Below are positions 154-9,461 of a stretch of 34,765 nt of DNA, one piece after another (positions within the stretch are counted from its first letter, which is position 1; the number at the start of each line of letters is the position of its first letter). Location of the stretch: positions 1 to 34,765 of the forward strand of contig JAFLEB010000012.1 in assembly GCA_017302075.1 (NCBI GenBank). Reading direction: 5' to 3'. The notes under the pieces are model-generated. The model was not told the DNA's origin. It did no database searches and worked only from the letters and a program-made list of their open reading frames with translations. A program made the position numbers and the translations under genes. The DNA comes from Lysobacterales bacterium. GTDB lineage: Bacteria; Pseudomonadota; Gammaproteobacteria; Xanthomonadales; Xanthomonadaceae.

Positions 154-873
154 TTATGCGAAGGCCAGCGCGTGCCAGCGCGCGAGCCCGCGCAGCACGG
201 CATCCGGCACCCAGTCGTGCGCGGGCAACAACGGGCGCAGCGTCGCCGCACCGCCACCATGCAGGCGCAGCGCCGGCGCGGCACCGAGCAAGGTCGTGGC
301 CTGCGCCAGGCTGCGCTCGACCAGCGCGATCGCCGCGCCTTCGCAACCGGAGGCCAGCGCCGGCGCGGTGTCGTCGGCGAATTCGGCATAGGCACCACCC
401 GCCTCCGGCAACACCATCGCGCGCGCATGCAGGGCCTCGCGCATCAGTCGCGGCGAGGGCGCGATGCGGCCGCCGCGATGGCCGCCAGCGGCATCCAGCA
501 CGTCGATGGTCAACGCGGTGCCGATGCCGACCACCAACGCCGGCCCGGAGCCGCAGGCATCGAGCAGGGCGAGGAAACGATCCACGCCGAGGTGGGCGGG
601 CACGGGATAGGCGATGCGCAACGGGCCAAGGCGCGGCTGCGTGTGCACCCGGTGGATCCGCGCGAAACGGGTGGACAGCGCATCCAGCAGCGCCACCCGG
701 CGCTCCTCGCTGGCCACGCTGGCCACGCAGGCGACCTCGCCCCGCGGTAGCGCGCGCAGCCAGTCGCCAGCCGCATCATGGGCGATGGCCCGGGGTTCGC
801 CGGGCAGGCCATCGGCGCCCACCTCGGCGTATTTCAAGCGCGTGTTGCCGAGGTCGAACACCCAAGTGCTCAT
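154..873 (-). CDS. coaX: Type III pantothenate kinase
   Basis: This 239-residue enzyme phosphorylates pantothenate, the first committed step of coenzyme A synthesis in the cytoplasm. It has the ASKHA-fold landmarks of CoaX: the phosphate loop FDLGNTRLKYA (residues 6-16), LGVDRFLALLDA from residue 95, GTALTID (118-124) and a GGRIAPSPRLM segment near 134-144. Family members have GG-I-PG-LM in that last place, so the P-G pair is replaced here by P-S. The ATG overlaps the birA stop in an ATGA junction (870-873), which implies translational coupling. The length is normal for type III enzymes, which are usually 240-260 residues. Confidence 0.95.
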   Translation of the reverse strand: MSTWVFDLGNTRLKYAEVGADGLPGEPRAIAHDAAGDWLRALPRGEVACVASVASEERRVALLDALSTRFARIHRVHTQPRLGPLRIAYPVPAHLGVDRFLALLDACGSGPALVVGIGTALTIDVLDAAGGHRGGRIAPSPRLMREALHARAMVLPEAGGAYAEFADDTAPALASGCEGAAIALVERSLAQATTLLGAAPALRLHGGGAATLRPLLPAHDWVPDAVLRGLARWHALAFA

Positions 874-1856
874 GCGCGCACGCTCACGTCGGCCGCGTGC
901 ACGCGGCGCTCGTGGCCATCGCCCATGCGCACCCGCAGCGCGCCGTCCTCGGCGATGCCGAGCGCCTGCGCCTCCCATGTGGAGGCCGCGTCGTGCACGC
1001 GCACGCCGCGTCCGGCGAGCGCATCGTGCACGGCATAGCGCGGCAGGAAGGGCGCGAGGCCGTCGGCGTCGAAACGCGACAGCGCCGGCAGCAACGCGTC
1101 CAGCACGGCGGCGACGACGATGTTGCGCGACACCTCGTCCTGCATCCCCGCGAGATCGATCCAGGGCTGGTCGATGCCGGCGCCCACCGCCCCAGGCATG
1201 CGCACGTTGAGGCCGAGGCCGATCACCGCGCGCGCCGCGCCACCGGCCTCGCCGCCGCCTTCGACGAGCAATCCGCCGAGCTTGCGCAGGCCGTGGCCAT
1301 GGTCGACGACCAGGTCGTTAGGCCACTTCAGCGCAACGCGCCCGAAGCCGAGGCCGTGCAACGCCTCGCAGGCGGCGATCCCGGCCACCAGGCTCAGCCC
1401 GCCCAGGCGCGCCAGTCCGCCGTCGAACTGGCGGGCCACCGAGAGATAGACATGCGCGCCCAGCGGCGATTGCCAATTGCGGCCGCGTCGCCCGCGACCG
1501 CCGGTCTGGCGCTCGGCGAGCAGCACCGCGCAGCCGTCCGCCGGCGCCCCGCGTCGCAGCAGCTCGCTGTTGGTGGAGTCGAGCGTCCACGCCACTTCCA
1601 GCGACGCGAGCTGGAGGTGCGCTGCTGGCGCCATCGCGGCACGGATCGCTGCGGCCTCCAGCCACTCGGGCGGATCGCGCAAGACATAGCCTCGCCCGGG
1701 CACGGCCTCGACCACGACACCGGCCGAGCGCAGGGCTTCGATGCGCTTCCACACCGCGGCGCGGGTCTGCCCGGCCTCGCGGGCGAGCGCATCGCCGCTC
1801 ACCGGGCCGGCCGCCAGTCGCTGCAGCAGCGCGCGTTCGGCGTGCGCGTCGCTCAC
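870..1856 (-). CDS. birA: Bifunctional biotin-protein ligase / biotin operon repressor
   Basis: The 328-residue protein activates biotin to biotinyl-AMP and attaches it to acetyl-CoA carboxylase carrier protein. Residues 1-60 form a winged-helix domain (GDALAREAGQTRAAVWKRIE), so it may also act as a repressor. The catalytic part shows TLDSTNSELL (91-100), the biotin/ATP loop GRGRRG (120-125), KWPNDL (177-182) and IGLGLNVRM (212-220). The start is GTG at 1856, read out of the plsY stop as GTGA; no other start fits the winged-helix N-terminus. Its own stop overlaps the coaX start. The three genes plsY, birA and coaX are therefore coupled head to tail. Confidence 0.96.
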   Translation of the reverse strand: MSDAHAERALLQRLAAGPVSGDALAREAGQTRAAVWKRIEALRSAGVVVEAVPGRGYVLRDPPEWLEAAAIRAAMAPAAHLQLASLEVAWTLDSTNSELLRRGAPADGCAVLLAERQTGGRGRRGRNWQSPLGAHVYLSVARQFDGGLARLGGLSLVAGIAACEALHGLGFGRVALKWPNDLVVDHGHGLRKLGGLLVEGGGEAGGAARAVIGLGLNVRMPGAVGAGIDQPWIDLAGMQDEVSRNIVVAAVLDALLPALSRFDADGLAPFLPRYAVHDALAGRGVRVHDAASTWEAQALGIAEDGALRVRMGDGHERRVHAADVSVRA

Positions 1857-2503
1857 CGCAACCAACCGCGATGCAGCCGATGCAACAGGCGCGCCCGTTC
1901 GAAGCGCGACTCGGTGCCGTGCCGCAGGCGCTGCAGGTTGGCGCGGTGGGTGAAGGCGATGAAGATCGCCGCAAACATGGAGAACCACAGCCGCGCGGGC
2001 TCGGCGTCGGTGCCCCACGCGAGCAACGGCAAGGCCAACGCCGCGAGCACGGTCGACAACCCGACGTAACCGGTGGCGACCAGCACCAGCATCCACACCG
2101 GCAGCAGCACGCCGATCGACCACGGCCACAGCATCAACAGGCCGCCGACCGCGGTCGCCGCGCCCTTGCCACCGCGGAAGCCGTGCCATAGCGGCCACAC
2201 ATGGCCGACCACCGCGCAGGCCGCGGCGGCATAGCCATGCGCGGTCACGTCGAGCGCCTGGCCCAGCGGCGCGAAGCGCAGCGCGAGCCACGCCGCCAGC
2301 GCGCCCTTGCCGACATCGATCGCGACCACCCCGAGCGCGAAGCGCCAGCCCAGCGTGCGCAGGGCATTGGTGCCGCCGGCGTTGCCGCTGCCGTGGCGAC
2401 GGATGTCGACCCCGCGCAGGCGACCGAGCAGCAGGCTGCCGGACACCGACCCCAGCAGGTAAGCGCACAGCAGCAGCAGGACGGTCAAGGCGATCGGGGG
2501 CAT
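1853..2503 (-). CDS. plsY: Acyl-phosphate:glycerol-3-phosphate acyltransferase
   Basis: PlsY moves the acyl group from acyl-phosphate to glycerol-3-phosphate, making lysophosphatidic acid at the inner membrane. The 216-residue protein has about five to six membrane helices and the three PlsY motifs: HGSGNAGGTN (37-46), GHVWPLWHGFRGGKG (100-114) and THRANLQRLRHGTE near 186-199. The first motif usually reads GSGNIGATN, so A and G replace I and A, a mild variation. It lies 62 bases downstream of the DhaL-DegV fusion gene and overlaps birA at a GTGA. Its substrate is the product expected of a fatty acid kinase, which makes the upstream neighbour notable. Confidence 0.96.
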   Translation of the reverse strand: MPPIALTVLLLLCAYLLGSVSGSLLLGRLRGVDIRRHGSGNAGGTNALRTLGWRFALGVVAIDVGKGALAAWLALRFAPLGQALDVTAHGYAAAACAVVGHVWPLWHGFRGGKGAATAVGGLLMLWPWSIGVLLPVWMLVLVATGYVGLSTVLAALALPLLAWGTDAEPARLWFSMFAAIFIAFTHRANLQRLRHGTESRFERARLLHRLHRGWLR

Positions 2504-2510
2504 GCCGGTG

Positions 2511-2516
2511 ATGATA
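2511..2516 (-). promoter_or_regulatory. Possible -10 element of plsY, leaderless spacing
   Basis: On the minus strand the bases before the plsY ATG read CGATTATCATCACCGGC. TATCAT is a fair -10 hexamer (five of six to TATAAT) and ends seven bases before the ATG. A transcript from it would begin at or almost at the start codon, that is leaderless or nearly so. No convincing -35 sits 16-18 bases upstream (ACCGGG). This is weak evidence; plsY could equally be read through from the upstream gene. Confidence 0.3.
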
Positions 2517-2565
2517 ATCGCGCCGCGTCAGCGCCCGGTCATCGCGGCAGGCGGGGCCTGCGCAC

Positions 2566-4392
2566 TCAGGCCGCGTCCGGGGCCGGCTGCAGGCCGACCA
2601 CCAGCGTGCCGGGCCCCGCGTGCGCACCCACCGCCGGACCCACTTCGACCAGGTGCGCCTCGACCACCGGCAAGCGCGTGCGCAAGGCCGCAAGCAGGCG
2701 CTCGCCATCCGCGGGTGCATCCGCATGCCCGACGATTAGCCGCCAGCCGGTGGCCACGGGCGCGCGTCGCGCAACGTAACGGGCGAAGGCTTCCGGCGCA
2801 CGGCCACGGGCCAGCAGGCCGCCGGCCACGCCGAGGGTGCCGTCCCCGCGCACCTTGGCGATCGGCAGCAGGCCGCTCCAGCGCACCACCGGCCCCGCCC
2901 AACGCGGGATCCGCCCGCCGCGCACTGCGTGCGAGATGTCGCGCGCCATCGCCCACGTGGTGGTCAGCGGCTTCAGCCGCGTGAGCTCGGCGAGGATCTC
3001 CGCAGCCCCGGCGCCGGCGTGGGCCAGCTCGCCGGCCCGCCACGCCAGCAGGGCCTGGCCCGCGCTCACGTGTCCGCTGTCGAGGCAGGCCGGTGGTTTT
3101 GGCTGCGCGCGCGCGGCGGTCTCCGCGGCCTGCAGGGTGCCGGACAAGGGCCGCGACAAGCCGACATAGACCGCGCCGGGCTGGTGCGCCAGCACGTGCT
3201 CGAACACCCGCCGGAAGTCGCCGGGCGGCGGCTGGCTGGTCTTCGGCAATTGCGCGCTCGCGGCCATGCGCCGGTAGAACGCGCCGGCGGTGAGGCCGAG
3301 GCGGTCGAGGTAGTCGCGGCCGTCCAGGCTCACCCGCACCGGGACGACGTGGATGCCGAGGCGGTCGGCCAGCGACGCCGGCAGGTCGGCCGCGCTGTCG
3401 GTGACGATCGCCACCCGGGTCGGCGACTCCGCGCTGCGCTGCTGCTGCAGCATGTCGTCGGCCTTCATCGACTCGACCTGGCCATGCGCCGCGCAGGCAT
3501 CGAACAGCGCCTGCGGGCTGCCGACATGGCCATGCACGCGCACCCGCGTGCGGCCGCCGGCGACGACCAGGGAATCGACGCCCAGCGCGACCAGCGCCGC
3601 CTGCAGCGCGTCGCGGTCGATCGCATCGCCCAGCACCAGGCATTCGGTGCAGTAGCGGCAATCGGGATCCACATCCTCGTGCAGGTGCGCGATCTCCGCG
3701 CCGGCATCGTTCGCCGCGGCGGGCGCGGCCTGCATGCGCATCGCGCGCGGGCCGCCGTCGACGTATTCGGCGATGCCTTCCAGCCAGTCGACGAAGCCGC
3801 GCGCGCCGGCATCGACCACCCCGGCCTTCTGCAACACCGGCATCTGCCGCGGCGTATCCGCCAGTGCGTGGCGCGCCCGTTGCAATGCGCGGGTGAAGCC
3901 GGTGCGCGGATCGTCGCTGCTGGCCTGGCCCGCGGCCTCGTCGAGCGCATCGGCGAACGCGGAGATGACGCTGAGGATGGTGCCCTCCACCGGCTTGGCC
4001 AGTGCGCTGCGCGCACTGTCCGCGCCCCGTCGCACCGCGGCGGCCAGCGCCCGCGCGTCCAGCACGGGGGCGTTGCGCGCCTGCTCGGCCAGGCCGACGA
4101 GGAACTGCGCCATGATCGCGCCGGAATTGCCGCGCGCGCCATCGATGGCGTCGTTGCCGATGCGCGCGAGCAGTTCGCCGATGTGCCGGCTGCGCCGGCT
4201 CAACGCACCCTGCAGCACGTTGCCGAGGGTCGAGGCGAGGTTGTTGCCGGTATCGCCGTCGGGCACCGGGAACACATTGATGCGATTGAGCTCGTCGCGC
4301 GCGGCGATGACCCGGCGCGTGCCGGCGATCATCGCGCGGCGCAGGGCGGCGGCGGTGACGGTGGGAGCGGGCGTGGACTGGGCGGCATCCAT
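2566..4392 (-). CDS. DhaL (Dak2)-FakA middle domain-DegV fusion, putative single-chain fatty acid kinase
   Basis: The 608-residue protein has three parts. Residues 1-210 are a DhaL/Dak2 kinase domain with the metal/nucleotide loop PDGDTGNN (44-51), GARGNSG (85-91) and VVDAGARGF (192-200). Residues 240-318 match the FakA middle domain, with YCTE (Cys248) and RVHGHV (His287, His289), the cysteine and HxH pattern known as its zinc site. Residues 325-603 are a DegV/FakB domain with TDSAADLP (331-338), SRPLSGT (413-419), DSGHVSAGQ (438-446), GGRIP (492-496) and a PIAKV strand. In Firmicutes separate FakA and FakB turn fatty acid into acyl-phosphate; here both halves sit in one chain without the FakA C-terminal domain. 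plsY follows directly. The kinase role is inferred from domains and context. Divergent from the gene at 4534. Confidence 0.88.
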   Translation of the reverse strand: MDAAQSTPAPTVTAAALRRAMIAGTRRVIAARDELNRINVFPVPDGDTGNNLASTLGNVLQGALSRRSRHIGELLARIGNDAIDGARGNSGAIMAQFLVGLAEQARNAPVLDARALAAAVRRGADSARSALAKPVEGTILSVISAFADALDEAAGQASSDDPRTGFTRALQRARHALADTPRQMPVLQKAGVVDAGARGFVDWLEGIAEYVDGGPRAMRMQAAPAAANDAGAEIAHLHEDVDPDCRYCTECLVLGDAIDRDALQAALVALGVDSLVVAGGRTRVRVHGHVGSPQALFDACAAHGQVESMKADDMLQQQRSAESPTRVAIVTDSAADLPASLADRLGIHVVPVRVSLDGRDYLDRLGLTAGAFYRRMAASAQLPKTSQPPPGDFRRVFEHVLAHQPGAVYVGLSRPLSGTLQAAETAARAQPKPPACLDSGHVSAGQALLAWRAGELAHAGAGAAEILAELTRLKPLTTTWAMARDISHAVRGGRIPRWAGPVVRWSGLLPIAKVRGDGTLGVAGGLLARGRAPEAFARYVARRAPVATGWRLIVGHADAPADGERLLAALRTRLPVVEAHLVEVGPAVGAHAGPGTLVVGLQPAPDAA

Positions 4393-4473
4393 GCGGCGAA
4401 GTCTGCGCGATCCGCGCCACGGGGCCTGTTGCGATGCACCATGCAACCTTTTCCGTTCAGGCTGCATCCACGC

Positions 4474-4479
4474 TATAGT
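4474..4479 (+). promoter_or_regulatory. -10 element for the small secreted protein gene
   Basis: TATAGT lies 54 bases upstream of the ATG at 4534 and matches the -10 consensus in five of six positions. The -35 position at 17-base spacing reads TTCCGT, which is poor. The bases GTTCAG (4455-4460) overlap it, so an activator may compensate. The region lies between this gene and the divergent DhaL-DegV gene. Confidence 0.45.
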
Positions 4480-4533
4480 CCGTGTTGGGATCATGCCTCC
4501 AAGGCACGCCCGTCCTCCTCTCTGGTGACCTGT

Positions 4534-4836
4534 ATGTCGCTGTCCGTCCGCCGCTTCCGCCTGGCCCTGGTCTGCATCGCGCTGCTGTGCGCCAGCGGCG
4601 TCGCCGCCGCCACGGATGGACGCCACCTGTCGGCCGATGGCGCCGGCAGCTGCCCGGATGGGGAAACCGCGACCGCCACCGACGCCGATCGGGTCGAGGA
4701 TCCGGAGGCCGATCCGGCCGCGGCGAACGCCGCGCGCAGGACCCCGAAGGCGAAGCCGGCCGTTGCGCCGCGCGCCACCGGCACGCGTCCTGCCGCGCCG
4801 CGCTGGCACAGTTTCCTGCCCGGGATGTTCCGCTGA
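4534..4836 (+). CDS. Small secreted protein of unknown function
   Basis: The product has 100 residues. The start MSLSVRRFRLALVCIALLCA gives a basic stretch and a hydrophobic core, with a likely signal peptidase I site after ASGVAAA near residue 28. The middle is acidic and proline/alanine-rich (ATDADRVEDPEADPAAANAA), then lysine/proline-rich, and the chain ends in the aromatic tail PRWHSFLPGMFR. I recognise no domain. The third-position G+C is high, as in true genes here, and a good -10 element lies upstream. mtfA follows 37 bases downstream, so the two may share a transcript. The disordered body suggests a periplasmic protein or one attached through its C-terminal tail. Confidence 0.7.
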   Translation: MSLSVRRFRLALVCIALLCASGVAAATDGRHLSADGAGSCPDGETATATDADRVEDPEADPAAANAARRTPKAKPAVAPRATGTRPAAPRWHSFLPGMFR

Positions 4837-4873
4837 TCGAGGCCGGCACCACGCCGGCCCGCCCGCACCCGCG

Positions 4874-5620
4874 ATGATCTGGCCGTTCCGGCGGCGCAAC
4901 ACTGCGCCCGACCTCGATCCTGCGCTCTGGCGCCAGGCCGCCGCCGGCCTGCCCTGGCTGCGCACGCTGGACCCCGCGCGCGACCAGCGCTTGCAGGCGC
5001 TGGTCGCCGCCTTCCTCGCCGGCAAGGCGATCACCCCGCTGCACGGGCTGCGCCTGAACGAGGTGCAGCGCCTGCGCCTCGCGATGCTGTGCTCTCTGCC
5101 GTTGCTCGAGTTCGGACGCGAGGGCCTGCACGGCTGGCGCGAACTGCTGGTCTACCCGGACGCCTTTCGCGTGCAGCGCAGCCACCAGGACGCGCATGGC
5201 GTGCTGCACGAATGGGACGACGACCTGATCGGCGAGGCGTGGGAGCACGGCCCGGTCATCCTGTCCTGGGCCGACGTGCGCGCCGACATCGCGGCGCCGC
5301 GCGACGGCTTCTGCGTGGTCGCCCACGAGATCGCGCACAAGCTGGATGCGCTGGACGGCGCGATGGACGGCACCCCCCCGCTCCCGCGCGACTGGCAGGT
5401 GCAATGGGCCTCCGACTTCCAGCGCGCCTATGACGCGCTGTGCGCACGGGTCGATGCCGGCGACGACAGCCCGATCGACGACTATGCGACCGAATCCCCG
5501 GAGGAGTTCTTCGCGGTCTGCACCGAGTACCACTTCAGCGATCCCGCGCGACTGCGCGACGCCATGCCCGAGGTGGCGGCGCACCTGCAGCGGTTCTACG
5601 GAGCGCCCTTGCTCGCATAG
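4874..5620 (+). CDS. mtfA: M90-family zinc peptidase MtfA
   Basis: The 248-residue protein carries the zinc-binding HEIAH motif at residues 151-155 (VVAHEIAHKLDALDG) and a downstream glutamate-rich helix (ESPEEFFAVCTEYHF), as in the gluzincin-like fold of MtfA. Escherichia coli MtfA (Mlc titration factor A) is a cytosolic peptidase that binds the repressor Mlc and so affects glucose PTS expression. Many xanthomonads probably lack Mlc, so its target here is unknown. The ATG at 4874 was chosen because MIWPFRRR begins the usual MtfA N-terminus. The gene is convergent with the kinase gene at 5787 across a long inverted repeat. Confidence 0.92.
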   Translation: MIWPFRRRNTAPDLDPALWRQAAAGLPWLRTLDPARDQRLQALVAAFLAGKAITPLHGLRLNEVQRLRLAMLCSLPLLEFGREGLHGWRELLVYPDAFRVQRSHQDAHGVLHEWDDDLIGEAWEHGPVILSWADVRADIAAPRDGFCVVAHEIAHKLDALDGAMDGTPPLPRDWQVQWASDFQRAYDALCARVDAGDDSPIDDYATESPEEFFAVCTEYHFSDPARLRDAMPEVAAHLQRFYGAPLLA

Positions 5621-5641
5621 ACCGGCTGGCACGCGTGGCAG

Positions 5642-5763
5642 CCACGCGGCCTGCGCCTCGGGGCATGGCTTCGAGCGGGCCAGGGATGGCCCGCGCCCGC
5701 GACATCAGTCGTGGATGACTGGATAGAGCGGCGAAGCCCTGCCCCGAGGCGCAAGCCGCGTGG
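5642..5763. repeat. Long imperfect inverted repeat with two nested hairpins (REPIN/MITE-like)
   Basis: The arms at 5642-5673 and 5732-5763 are complementary in 30 of 32 positions. The 58-base spacer holds two further hairpins. One is GCGGGCCA-GGGA-TGGCCCGC (5675-5694), a perfect 8-bp stem with a GNRA-type loop. The other is CAGTC-GTGGAT-GACTG (5706-5721). The element fills the gap between the convergent genes mtfA and the sensor kinase, where it could end transcription from both sides. Its size and nested hairpins resemble REP doublets (REPINs) or a small MITE. I found no second copy in this window. Confidence 0.8.
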
Positions 5764-5786
5764 TCGCAGCATCGATGCGTGCGCGG

Positions 5787-7247
5787 TCAGAGTCCCGGCG
5801 GCAACACGATCTCGAACTTCGCGCCACCGAACTCGGCCGAACGCGAGACGTGCAACTCGCCGCGGTAGCTCTTGACGATGTCCTGCACGATCGCGAGGCC
5901 AATGCCATGCCCCTGCACGCGCTCGTCGCCGCGTACGCCACGCTGCAGCACATGCGCGATGCGGTCCTCGGCGATGCCGGGCCCATCGTCCTCGACCGCG
6001 ATCGACAGGCCGGGCCGGCGACCGGCGCTCTCCGTGCCTTCGGCGATGGTCAGCAGGACACGCGCCCGCGCCCACTTGAACGCGTTTTCCAGCAGGTTGC
6101 CCAGCAACTCCTGCAGGTCGCCGACCTCGCCGTGGAAGCGGGCCTGCGGCGCGATCTCGAACTCGCACAGCACCCGCTTGCCGGCATACACCTTCTCCAG
6201 CCCGGTCACGATCTGCTCGGCGTGCGGCTCGATCTCGATCGGCGCGGCGAACAACTGGTGGCCGGAGCGCGCGGCGCGCGCCAGCTGGTAGGACACCAGG
6301 TCATTCATGCGCCGCAATTGGGTGTCGACTTCGGCGCGCAACTCCGCCTCGCCGGCGCCGCTGTCCAGCCGCGTGCGCATCACCGCCAGCGGCGTCTTCA
6401 GGCTGTGCGCGAGGTCGGCGAGCGTGTTGCGCTGGCGGTCCAGGTTCTCGCGCTCGCTCTCGATGAACGCATTGATGCTGGCGGTCAGCGGTTCCAGCTC
6501 GCGCGGATGGGCTTCGCTCATGCCGGACGCGTGGCCGGCCTGGACGCGCTTGAGGTCGGCGATCACGTCGCGCAGCGGACGCAGGCTCCAGCGCAGCACG
6601 AGCATCTGCAGCAGCAGCAGGACGAGGCCCGCACCGCCCAGGTTGAGCCAGAGCGCGGAGCGGAACGCCCCAAGCTGCCGGCCGAGCGCGGTGGTGTCCT
6701 CCAGTACATAGACGGCGTACGGCACCTCGGTGCCGTCGGCGCGAGTCGCGTCGACCAGGCCGATCCCGTAGCGGTAGACCTCGCCCGCCTCGCCATTGAT
6801 CTGGGTGAGCGGCAACGGCCCTTCGAAGACCTGTTGGCGCGCAGCGAGCATCGAGGCCGGCGGCAGGCGCGGCCCTTGCGCGGACTCCGACTCCCAACGC
6901 CGGCTCGGCAGCACGATCTGCGCATACAGCCCGCTACCCGGGCGCTTGAAGCGCGGGTCGGGCGGGTCGTACGGCGGGATGACGCTGCCGTCGCGGGCGA
7001 AGTCGCTGCTGGCGTAGGCAAGCGCATAACTGTGCAGGCGCTCGCGCATGCCGCTCTGCGCGGTGCTGAGGAACGCGCGGTCCAGCGCGAAACCGGCCAG
7101 CGCGAGGAACGCCACCAGGCCCAGGCTTGCCGCCCACAACTGGCGCGACTGCAGCGAACGGGGCTGGGCGATGCGCAAACGACGCGGGCGCGGCTGGTCG
7201 GCCGCGCCCGTGGGCTTCGGGGGATCGACGGCGGGCGCCGGGGTCAT
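5787..7247 (-). CDS. phoQ: PhoQ-like sensor histidine kinase
   Basis: The 486-residue protein has a first membrane helix at about 36-56, a periplasmic sensor of about 140 residues and a second helix at 199-219. A HAMP-type linker (LRWSLRPLRDV) follows. The dimerisation box is DLAHSLKTPLAVM with phospho-acceptor His281, the HSLKTP form typical of PhoQ. The ATPase part shows an N box (LGNLLENAFKW), DDGPGI and GHGIGLAIV. The 30-residue proline-rich N-terminal extension is cytosolic. PhoQ proteins sense low divalent cations, acid or cationic peptides; I cannot see from sequence whether this sensor binds Mg2+. It lies 54 bases after phoP in the same operon. Confidence 0.85.
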   Translation of the reverse strand: MTPAPAVDPPKPTGAADQPRPRRLRIAQPRSLQSRQLWAASLGLVAFLALAGFALDRAFLSTAQSGMRERLHSYALAYASSDFARDGSVIPPYDPPDPRFKRPGSGLYAQIVLPSRRWESESAQGPRLPPASMLAARQQVFEGPLPLTQINGEAGEVYRYGIGLVDATRADGTEVPYAVYVLEDTTALGRQLGAFRSALWLNLGGAGLVLLLLQMLVLRWSLRPLRDVIADLKRVQAGHASGMSEAHPRELEPLTASINAFIESERENLDRQRNTLADLAHSLKTPLAVMRTRLDSGAGEAELRAEVDTQLRRMNDLVSYQLARAARSGHQLFAAPIEIEPHAEQIVTGLEKVYAGKRVLCEFEIAPQARFHGEVGDLQELLGNLLENAFKWARARVLLTIAEGTESAGRRPGLSIAVEDDGPGIAEDRIAHVLQRGVRGDERVQGHGIGLAIVQDIVKSYRGELHVSRSAEFGGAKFEIVLPPGL

Positions 7248-7301
7248 GCGCGGGACGCGCGACCAGCGGCGGGCCTCACGCGCCGCGCCGCCGGAATGCG
7301 C

Positions 7302-7985
7302 TTACTCCCCGCTCCGCGGGATCGCGAAACGGTAGCCACGGCCGCGCACGGTCTCGATCGGCTTGAGGCTGCCATCGGGATCGAGCTTCTTGCGCAGGCG
7401 GCCGATGAACACTTCGAGCACGTTCGAGTCGCGATCGAAGTCCTGCTGGTAGATGTGCTCGGTGAGGTCGGCCTTCGAGACCAGTTCGCCGGCGTGCATC
7501 ATCAGGTACTCGAGCACCTTGTACTCGTAGCTGGTGAGGTCGACGTTGGCGCCGTTGACGCTGACCGTCTGCGCGGCGAGGTCGAGCATCACCGGTCCGC
7601 ATTCCAGGCTCGGCTTGCTCCAGCCGGCGGCGCGGCGGACCAGCGCATTGATGCGGGCCAGCAACTCCTCGACGTGGAACGGCTTCACCAGGTAGTCGTC
7701 GGCACCCTGCTTCAGGCCCTCGACCTTGTCCTGCCAGCTGGAGCGCGCGGTCAGGATCAGCACCGGGAACTTCTTGCCTTCGTCGCGCAGGGCCTTGATC
7801 AACTCCATGCCCGACATCTTCGGCAGGCCGAGGTCGATGATGCCGACGTCGAACGGCACTTCGCGGCCCATGTACAGGCCTTCCTCGCCGTCTTGCGCGG
7901 CATCGACCGCATAGCCTTCGCGCTTCAGGCGCGCGGCCAGGGTTTCGCGCAGCGGGGCTTCGTCTTCGACGAGCAGGATACGCAT
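7302..7985 (-). CDS. phoP: PhoP-like OmpR-family response regulator
   Basis: The protein has 227 residues. The receiver domain begins MRILLVEDEA with acidic residues Glu7, Asp8 and Glu9; the phospho-acceptor is Asp51 in FDVGIIDLGLPKMSG. The switch residues LTARSS and VKPFHVEELL are present. The C-terminal half is an OmpR winged helix with SYEYKVLEYLMMHAGELVSK and the wing RGRGYRF. A strong ribosome site (GAGGAG) lies before the ATG. It sits between the PepSY-domain gene (64-base gap) and phoQ. The phased TTCA repeats at 8484-8512 in front of the operon are the sort of site this family binds. Confidence 0.88.
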   Translation of the reverse strand: MRILLVEDEAPLRETLAARLKREGYAVDAAQDGEEGLYMGREVPFDVGIIDLGLPKMSGMELIKALRDEGKKFPVLILTARSSWQDKVEGLKQGADDYLVKPFHVEELLARINALVRRAAGWSKPSLECGPVMLDLAAQTVSVNGANVDLTSYEYKVLEYLMMHAGELVSKADLTEHIYQQDFDRDSNVLEVFIGRLRKKLDPDGSLKPIETVRGRGYRFAIPRSGE

Positions 7986-8049
7986 GGAATCTCCTCGTGG
8001 GATCCGGCCTCGCGGCCGGGGGCATCTGTCAGCGGCTCAGGATGCGGGG

Positions 8050-8436
8050 TCAGTCGTCATTGTCGCGTGGAGGCGGGGGCGGGCGACGACCACCGTCCTC
8101 GCGCCGGGCCGGGCGTTCGCCTTCGTCGTGGCGCGGCTCCTGTATGAAGACGCGCACGCGGCCCTGGTCGTCCACCACCTTGACCCGGTGCATGTCGCGG
8201 CCGTCGTACTGCACGCGCTCGGCCGACAGCACTTCCCCACGGGTGTCGCGCTCGACCCGGCGCACGGCATCGGACAGGCTGCTGTGGTCCGCGCGATTGT
8301 TGCCCTGGTCCTGCTGCTGGCGCCCGCCCCGGCCACCGTCGTTCGATTGCGGATCCGCGAAGGCCGGCAACGCCGGCAGCATCGCCAGCAAGGCGAGGGC
8401 CAGGAGCGTCAACGAGGGCGGGCGACGGCGGGACAT
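8050..8436 (-). CDS. Secreted PepSY-domain protein heading the phoPQ operon
   Basis: The product has 128 residues with a clear signal peptide (LTLLALALLAMLPALPAFA, cut near residue 27). The PepSY-type region is SLSDAVRRVERDTRGEVLSA followed by RVKVVDDQGRVRVFIQEP, the helix plus beta-hairpin of the family. The tail is highly charged and ends in a proline run (GGRRPPPPPRDNDD). Short periplasmic PepSY proteins often precede PhoPQ-type systems and may tune the sensor or a protease; that role is inferred. It is the first gene after the phased repeats at 8484-8512, so it should be strongly affected by any autoregulation. Confidence 0.8.
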   Translation of the reverse strand: MSRRRPPSLTLLALALLAMLPALPAFADPQSNDGGRGGRQQQDQGNNRADHSSLSDAVRRVERDTRGEVLSAERVQYDGRDMHRVKVVDDQGRVRVFIQEPRHDEGERPARREDGGRRPPPPPRDNDD

Positions 8437-8483
8437 GGCGGGACCAGTTGGCAGATCGTTGGCGACGATTCTGGGCGCGCGCG

Positions 8484-8531
8484 GTGAATCCGCCCTGAAA
8501 TCACCTGAACAGGATACCGCGCTGTTCAGGT
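8484..8531 (-). promoter_or_regulatory. Phased TTCA(GG) repeats and inverted repeat upstream of the PepSY-phoPQ operon
   Basis: On the minus strand TTCAGG, TTCAGG and TTCACC have their TTCA cores at 8509-8506, 8499-8496 and 8488-8485. The spacing is 10 and then 11 bases, one helical turn each. This is the layout of OmpR/PhoP-family sites. A possible -10, CAGAAT (8473-8468), follows nine bases after the last repeat, so the array covers the -35 position. The outermost repeat is also half of a perfect 10-bp inverted repeat, ACCTGAACAG (8503-8512) with CTGTTCAGGT (8522-8531), which may serve the upstream gene's end. Binding by PhoP is inferred. Confidence 0.55.
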
Positions 8532-8549
8532 TCGGGGCAGCGGCACCCG

Positions 8550-9461
8550 TCAAAACACTTCGCCGATGCAACAGCGCAGGGAACCGCCGCCTGCCTCGAT
8601 CGCGTCCAGGGCCACGGATTCGACCCGGAAACCGGCCTCCTCCAGCACCTGCCGACGGGAGGGCGCGAGGGCCTTCGCCGCACTCGCGCTCATCCATACC
8701 GTTTCCGCAGACAAGGCGATGCAATTGCCGACGAAGGCCGCATGTTCGTCGGCGTTGCAGGTGATCGCGTGCGGCGCGTGGATCCCGGCGATCGCCGCGG
8801 GCACCGCCGGATCGGCGAAGCCGCGTGGGCAGACCACCGCCGCCCGCCCGGCCAGCACCGCCAGCACGACGTTCGCGTGGTACTCGCCGGGGGCGAGGTC
8901 GAACAGCAGGGTGGCGCGCAGGCCGAAGGCCGCGTGCATCAGGCGCGCGCCGTCCTCGTCGCAGCGCTCGGAGAGGCCGCAGTAGCCCAGCCCGCGGGCG
9001 CGATCGATCACCAGCGATCCGGTGAGCTCGCACGCATGCGGCTGGCCGGACAGGTCGACCTCGGCGCGGCCCAGCACGTCGTGGAAGAAGGCGCGGATGT
9101 CGGCGCGCGCGGCCTCGCGCTGGCGCACCGGGTGGCGCATGCGCCCGACCACGTAGCGCCCGGGCGCGCAGCCGAAGACGTTGTTCGGGAACACCGCGTC
9201 CGGGGTGGCCGGATCGCCGGCGAAGCAGAGCGTCGGCAGTACCGGGGAGATCGCGCGCTGCAGGTCGCGGTGCTGCAGGGAGGCACGCTGCGCGTCGAAG
9301 GCGGCGGCATCGGCCATGTAGACGTTGTCGGTGGCCGACTGCCCGGCCCGCGCGAACCCGTCCGGCGCGACCAGGAACGCCGCGCGCGGCGTGGCCGGAC
9401 CGAAGTCGGCTTCGACGCCACGCGCGAAGGCGAAGAAGGCATCGAGGTCGCGGGTGATCAT
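8550..9461 (-). CDS. Arginine deiminase-related (amidinotransferase superfamily, CtlX-like) hydrolase
   Basis: The 303-residue protein belongs to the guanidino-group-modifying superfamily. It shows FPNN (91-94), CELTGSLVIDR with Glu145, GLSERCDEDGARL (162-174), EYHANVVL with His195 and a C-terminal GGGSLRC with the nucleophile candidate Cys297. This Cys/His/Glu arrangement is that of dimethylargininase and of the CtlX citrulline hydrolase group. The substrate is probably arginine, citrulline or a methylated arginine, but sequence alone does not decide. The ATG overlaps the dusA stop (ATGA), so the two are translated together. A terminator-like inverted repeat follows at 8503-8531. Confidence 0.82.
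   Translation of the reverse strand: MITRDLDAFFAFARGVEADFGPATPRAAFLVAPDGFARAGQSATDNVYMADAAAFDAQRASLQHRDLQRAISPVLPTLCFAGDPATPDAVFPNNVFGCAPGRYVVGRMRHPVRQREAARADIRAFFHDVLGRAEVDLSGQPHACELTGSLVIDRARGLGYCGLSERCDEDGARLMHAAFGLRATLLFDLAPGEYHANVVLAVLAGRAAVVCPRGFADPAVPAAIAGIHAPHAITCNADEHAAFVGNCIALSAETVWMSASAAKALAPSRRQVLEEAGFRVESVALDAIEAGGGSLRCCIGEVF

Follow-up and report, generated by a model that had tools for sequence, protein, structure and literature searches.

The window analyzed here, contig 24 (GenBank JAFLEB010000012.1, 34,765 nucleotides) of the 2.77 Mb genome of a Lysobacterales bacterium (assembly GCA_017302075.1), carries a gene that joins a FakA-type kinase and a FakB-like domain in a single chain, just upstream of plsY. 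The protein is probably a one-chain fatty acid kinase in a PlsX-free salvage module, in which acyl-phosphate made from free fatty acid is used by the acyltransferase PlsY, beside the PlsB route. Its closest named relatives come from Thermomonas (75-81% identity), in the family Lysobacteraceae, which includes Xanthomonas.

The FakAB system has been described as a Gram-positive strategy (PMC10146087), and the Xanthomonadales as having PlsB/PlsC only, without PlsY, in two recent papers (PMC11633183, PMC13400652). Contrary to the latter description, PlsY occurs in 46 of 119 Lysobacteraceae genomes, and its pairing with the fusion points to a lipid-salvage route undescribed in the relatives of Xanthomonas. 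Open-access titles and abstracts, with subscription journals outside their scope, yielded no paper on a single-chain Fak, a Gram-negative Fak, or a Lysobacter PlsY or fatty acid kinase. The parts are known; no description of them joined and trimmed, together with a PlsX-free PlsY, turned up in the open-access literature covered.

Domain architecture and predicted fold

The fusion gene runs on the minus strand from an ATG at 4392 to a stop at 2566, as an earlier note made from the sequence alone had described, and its 608-codon open reading frame (ORF) contains all the motifs listed there for a DhaL-DegV chain, including C248 and H287-x-H289. On the same strand, plsY starts 62 bases past the fusion stop and is followed by birA and coaX in coupled frames, plsY and birA overlapping as GTGA and birA and coaX as ATGA, so that the coordinates confirm the gene order given earlier. 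The features of the fusion and of plsY are as follows.

2566..4392, minus strand: putative single-chain FakA-FakB-like fatty acid kinase, 608 amino acids (domains, profiles, predicted fold)
3766..4269, minus strand: DhaL-type kinase domain, residues 42-209 (Pfam Dak2, 2e-35; FakA_N structure; residues)
3436..3660, minus strand: FakA middle domain, residues 245-319, with zinc-type site C248, H287, H289 (Pfam FakA-like_M, 6.7e-14; residues)
2590..3414, minus strand: DegV/FakB-like domain, residues 327-601 (Pfam DegV, 2.7e-56; structure matches; residues)
2812..2814, minus strand: L527 codon, aligned with the arginine by which FakB docks FakA (alignment column)
1853..2503, minus strand: plsY, acyl-phosphate:glycerol-3-phosphate acyltransferase, 216 amino acids (TIGR00023; motifs)

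The DegV domain is complete, scoring 191.4 bits against a cut-off of 27 with the Pfam model and 206.6 against 99.7 with TIGR00762. The NCBIfam models YloV (254.7 bits, cut-off 396.1) and FakA_VfrB both stay below cut-off, with matches ending at 316 of 530 and 313 of 549, respectively, and neither detects in the fusion the C-terminal domain with which FakA docks FakB. Because these models stop at 313-316 and the DegV model lies far over its cut-off, the chain, judged from its sequence, is a FakA minus its C-terminal FakB-docking domain, in whose place a complete DegV/FakB-like domain is joined to the kinase and middle domains.

In an AlphaFold model made from 32 fusions (predicted local distance difference test, pLDDT, 88.7; predicted template-modeling score, pTM, 0.85), Foldseek matches to the Protein Data Bank (PDB) include S. 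aureus FakA_N (template-modeling score, TM, 0.94), Thermus DegV (0.90) and FakB1 (0.87), with all three scores taken relative to the target. The earlier description of a single-chain FakA-FakB has good support in sequence, residues and fold, but the protein is not a whole FakA, as both the C-terminal docking domain and the FakB-side arginine are gone. A whole-chain match recurs in 58 loci (L003-L060), in 57 of them as one aligned stretch, among the best 80 of the 112 relatives found in the genome scan, and an architecture held by 58 loci is no chance event.

The neighboring PlsY scores 161.8 bits with TIGR00023 (cut-off 137.2) and has intact motifs (GSGNAGGTN, FRGGKG, HRxN). In an alignment of 19 sequences, its glycerol-3-phosphate-pocket residues S39, R49, K113, H186 and N189 fall by motif at Aquifex S35, R45, K104, H177 and N180, a mapping made by eye.

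Conserved residues and the docking arginine

We aligned 32 fusions from several phyla, comprising the window and 31 of the 58 fusion loci. The kinase metal-binding-type residues D45, D47 and N51 and the zinc-type residues C248, H287 and H289 are invariant in all of them, as are S417 and R494 in the DegV domain, while T385 is kept in 29 and replaced by S in three, and H591 is H in the window and in 29 of the 32 overall. Alignment to FakB2 (4x9x) puts T385, S417, R494 and H591 at the places of T61, S93, R170 and H266; what these do at the carboxylate and the acyl-phosphate was reportedly set out in the 2016 FakB2 paper. The alignment also puts L527 opposite FakB2 R202, which we take to be the arginine contacting the C-terminal domain of FakA. 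In FakA, the Cys/His/His site binds zinc and is required for activity (PMC11617999).

The FakA C-terminal domain binds FakB, and an arginine wedge, with R205 as the docking arginine of FakB1, mediates docking and also binds bilayers; FakA deprived of this domain remains active, its apparent KM for FakB1 being about tenfold higher, 0.99 versus 0.09 µM (PMC9136124). In 31 of the 32 fusions the docking-arginine column reads L, F, I or P, whereas all 14 separate DegV/FakB proteins compared have R or K there; this set consists of 10 of 11 separate DegV frames (the fragment L082 omitted; three pairs closely related) plus 4 of 22 solved sequences, and a MAFFT alignment yields the same column. Both halves of the interface appear to be gone, and a covalent tether seems to have replaced FakA_C:FakB docking. 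With a hydrophobic residue at the place of the wedge, the membrane step would have to differ as well.

In a kinase tree, 36 fusions fall on one side of a supported branch, opposite 19 FakAs taken as separate (19 of 22 separate loci were used, L072, L079 and L080 being omitted), under a long-branch warning that extends to L048. Since all loci were fetched with the window protein as bait, a single origin of the fusion is compatible with this tree, not proven by it. L048 (Eisenbacteria), the first branch of the fusion clade, is the sole fusion of the 32 that keeps the docking arginine, and its DegV domain is preceded by about 32 additional residues. It is possibly an early stage of the fusion, in which case joining would have come first and loss of the docking site later.

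The window genome also encodes a second, separate DegV protein (L002, C218:5458-6366), in which the R170 position is R and the docking position K, and which by these residues could be a further fatty acid carrier.

Co-occurrence with PlsY in Lysobacteraceae

Among the 119 Lysobacteraceae genomes, the fusion was found in 45, PlsY in those 45 and G072, PlsX in one (G112), and PlsB in 116. The fusion count derives from 48 matches, less G054, G070 and G072 as weak DegV-only matches (E 9e-5 to 5e-4), and includes G011 and G051 despite their split frames. PlsY is thus present in 45 of 45 fusion genomes versus 1 of 74 fusion-less ones (Fisher's test, 3e-32, kinship ignored), and 44 of the 45 have no detectable PlsX; none was found in the window's own genome, which is 86.8% complete. 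The split fusion frames, L054/L139 (Thermomonas haemolytica, G051) and L138 (G011), keep plsY and reflect either sequencing error or beginning loss.

Kinship was taken into account on a PlsB tree of 113 genomes, in which one gene stands in for the species tree under a quick LG+G4 search; six of the 119 genomes are omitted, G023, G056 and G084 for lack of a PlsB match and G014, G104 and G110 as fragments. Along this tree at least 15 changes of state are needed for the fusion, supported branches forcing 10 of them; over 10 independent contrasts, PlsY moves with the fusion in an average of 9.9 and never the opposite way (sign test, p ~0.002).

The two genes are linked in 43 of the 45 genomes, their domain hits lying a median of 97 bases apart. 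At the level of loci, 37 of the 39 fusions with at least 50% identity, all from Lysobacteraceae or unlabelled relatives, have a same-strand plsY downstream, and birA and coaX follow in 36; L017 and L020 lack plsY, birA and coaX, and L034 ends at a contig edge. The fusion-plsY proximity, on whose conservation the earlier note had made its reading depend, is therefore borne out in related genomes, and family co-occurrence together with these linked loci rules out a quirk of one genome. Co-occurrence and the absence of PlsX make the tie to plsY stronger than that note could tell from the sequence. G021 and G066, from one genus, keep the fusion and plsY on different contigs, and G501, a 100% complete genome belonging to another family of the order, carries the two genes apart (fusion on contig 14, PlsY on contig 1) and lacks PlsX. 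Retention of both genes though unlinked in two lineages speaks against linkage alone as the reason for their pairing.

The sole family PlsY without a fusion belongs to G072, where plsY-birA-coaX is retained beside the M90 peptidase gene. This plsY (L133, 6228-6875) has three changes in motif 1, GTGSAGGSN, unique among 74 plsY loci (some genomes represented twice), the others reading GSGNAG(G/A)TN in 70 and GSGSAGGTN in two, with one unread. In Aquifex PlsY, the S35T change leaves 17% of the activity (PMC5700162). The G072 gene looks as if it were decaying after loss of the fusion, an anecdote from one genome.

For PlsB, G056 and G084 (genus g5; 99% and 93% complete) and G023 gave no match even with a query from a genus-mate, and these genomes have the fusion and PlsY and lack PlsX. 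As plsB is split over two contigs in G110, of the same genus, the absence is possibly an assembly gap.

Counter-evidence and fusions outside the family

Several observations weigh against a dedicated, PlsX-free kinase-PlsY module. Joint loss of linked neighbors accounts for part of the fusion-PlsY co-occurrence, given linkage in nearly all fusion genomes. At the level of structure, S. suis FakA spans the fusion chain at a TM of only 0.33; the domains match and their arrangement differs. The H591 column holds S or N in 3 of the 32 fusions and H in just 7 of the 14 separate DegV/FakB proteins, which makes it the weakest of the four FakB-site residues. Besides, one fusion genome, G112, does have PlsX. 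Its plsX (L134, C50, 1242-2303) adjoins fabH in a cluster whose GC agrees (0.708 vs 0.717), and the near-identical species G086 has no PlsX; it is either G112's own gene or a contaminant.

A further contrast comes from outside the family. Of 369 Gammaproteobacteria, 22 matched: the window genome, 15 other fusions (G199, G223 and G346 partial), G205, where kinase and DegV are separate pieces without fusion, and five weak DegV-only matches that were dropped (G144, G161, G176, G391, G422). PlsX is present in 13 of the 16 other gammaproteobacterial genomes, missing in G501, G142 (62% complete) and G205, and in 18 of 19 further fusion genomes, the exception holding L044; PlsY occurs in 33 of the 35 genomes of both sets together (G120 and G502 are the same genome, common to both). 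Moreover, plsY lies downstream in 0 of 19 fusion loci under 50% identity. Outside fusions thus mostly have PlsX and no downstream plsY, which means that the pairing does not hold for the fusion in general; a tie between the fusion and PlsX absence everywhere is ruled out. Two loci come closer to the window: L123, in G142 of another family, has fusion-plsY-birA-coaX in the same order, and L044, from a Spirochaetaceae metagenome-assembled genome, has DUF1295 and plsY genes as a divergent two-gene run beside the fusion (3508-6800), with no PlsX found. The compact fusion is wider than Lysobacteraceae, and its PlsX-free pairing with PlsY is a local speciality.

Alternative explanations

RpfF has thioesterase activity in Lysobacteraceae. 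The same enzyme might mainly recycle endogenous free fatty acids, released by thioesterases, lipases or RpfF-type signal synthesis, instead of taking in exogenous ones. This has a substantial chance of being right, somewhat short of even: the module stands beside a PlsB able to serve acyl-CoA and acyl-ACP, and Fak recycling has been reported in Enterococcus faecalis (PMC12594616), but the present data fit exogenous and recycled sources alike. We consider it unlikely that the fusion and plsY are merely old neighbors, gained and lost as a block without a shared pathway. Their close linkage would agree with that, as would the fusion bearers of other groups, which mostly keep the genes apart and have PlsX; yet both genes persist when unlinked in two lineages, the only orphan PlsY, in G072, has an altered motif 1, and with PlsX missing, no other acyl donor for PlsY is known.

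The few DegV members with known ligands leave room for a fusion whose substrate is some other lipid-like carboxylate, or whose role is regulatory, rather than one serving phospholipid salvage, which the pairing with PlsY, an acyl-phosphate user, makes rather improbable. Least credible is a third domain that is only the FakA C-terminal domain, with a separate FakB still needed. FakA_C is structurally related to FakB, and L002 could supply the separate partner, but FakA_C has no fatty acid tunnel (PMC9136124), whereas the third domain conserves the FakB residues T, S and R and matches the DegV model at full length, beyond the point where the FakA models end. On profiles and structure matches, the reading as a mere FakA_C was set aside.

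Neighboring genes

Downstream of plsY lie two further genes.

870..1856, minus strand: birA, GTG start (profile matches; neighbor, no functional link found)
154..873, minus strand: coaX, type III pantothenate kinase (Pfam Pan_kinase, 7.2e-28; neighbor, no functional link found)

The earlier note had made both part of the module, tying biotin and CoA supply to acyl flux, which we regard as very unlikely. Overlapping frames speak for it, as does the recurrence of both genes behind plsY in most related loci and in another family (L123); however, both are housekeeping genes, and they remain next to plsY both where the fusion lies elsewhere (L136) and where it has been lost (L133). The proposed tie is thus unsupported, and birA and coaX, keeping company with plsY and not with the fusion, are best read as mere neighbors.

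Upstream of the fusion gene lies a divergent M90 peptidase ORF (MtfA-like). At 4616-9458, this ORF shares the flank of the module with a histidine kinase/response regulator pair and a protein of DDAH type (dimethylargininase family).

Proposed mechanism and significance

From the directly observed architecture, residue pattern, predicted fold, gene linkage, co-occurrence and PlsX absence, we infer a reaction, a hand-over to PlsY, a membrane step and an acid source, exogenous or recycled. The DegV domain would take up a free fatty acid with its carboxylate exposed to S417, T385 and H591, R494 lying near the acyl-phosphate, and the tethered DhaL and zinc middle domains would phosphorylate the bound fatty acid with ATP. 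The labile acyl-phosphate may then pass to PlsY, which would place the chain onto sn-1 of glycerol-3-phosphate. Because PlsX is missing from nearly all these genomes, acyl-phosphate would come only from free fatty acid and could not be converted to acyl-ACP, and without such a route the module would be a salvage bypass of the PlsB step, outside de novo synthesis. Salvaged chains would be expected unelongated at sn-1, with PlsB serving de novo synthesis.

A bolder version, which we hold to be improbable, has the module lead, independently and without PlsX, from free fatty acid all the way to lysophosphatidic acid, with the Leu/Phe at the docking place as a hydrophobic membrane-exchange tip and PlsB replaced in at least one lineage, genus g5; if true for G056 and G084, phospholipid synthesis would start there from free fatty acid. 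If the salvage module is real, it would offer a natural one-chain acyl-phosphate source and a clean system for studying how fatty acids are salvaged to sn-1 separately from de novo synthesis, as well as a case in which both halves of a known protein-docking site vanished after gene fusion.

Comparison with known systems

The FakA/FakB (YloV/DegV) system of Firmicutes shares with the fusion the kinase, the zinc middle domain, the FakB-like domain and most key residues, and in both the product would be expected to go to PlsY. The fusion differs in being one chain without the FakA C-terminal docking domain and with the docking arginine lost, and its host is a Gram-negative that has PlsB but lacks PlsX. 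Compact DhaL-FakA_M-DegV chains from Izemoplasma, Bacilli, Eubacteriaceae, Spirochaetaceae and other Gammaproteobacteria have the same domain order at about 28-41% identity and belong to one kinase clade, but mostly occur with PlsX and have no plsY directly downstream; G142/L123 alone shares the four-gene order.

In the PlsY-DegV fusions of Bellilinea and Thermanaerothrix, a FakB-like domain is likewise physically tied to the acyl-phosphate pathway, and channelling from this domain to PlsY has been proposed from them; there DegV is joined to PlsY, whereas here it is joined to the kinase and PlsY is a neighbor (PMC5700162). The PlsX/PlsY pathway has PlsY and acyl-phosphate in common with the present module, but there PlsX makes acyl-phosphate from acyl-ACP, and here PlsX was found in 1 of 119 genomes. 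Finally, Gram-negatives recycle free fatty acid through the acyl-CoA synthetase FadD/RpfB, which activates it for re-use. Both routes would activate free fatty acid, but FadD/RpfB gives acyl-CoA for PlsB/PlsC, not acyl-phosphate for PlsY.

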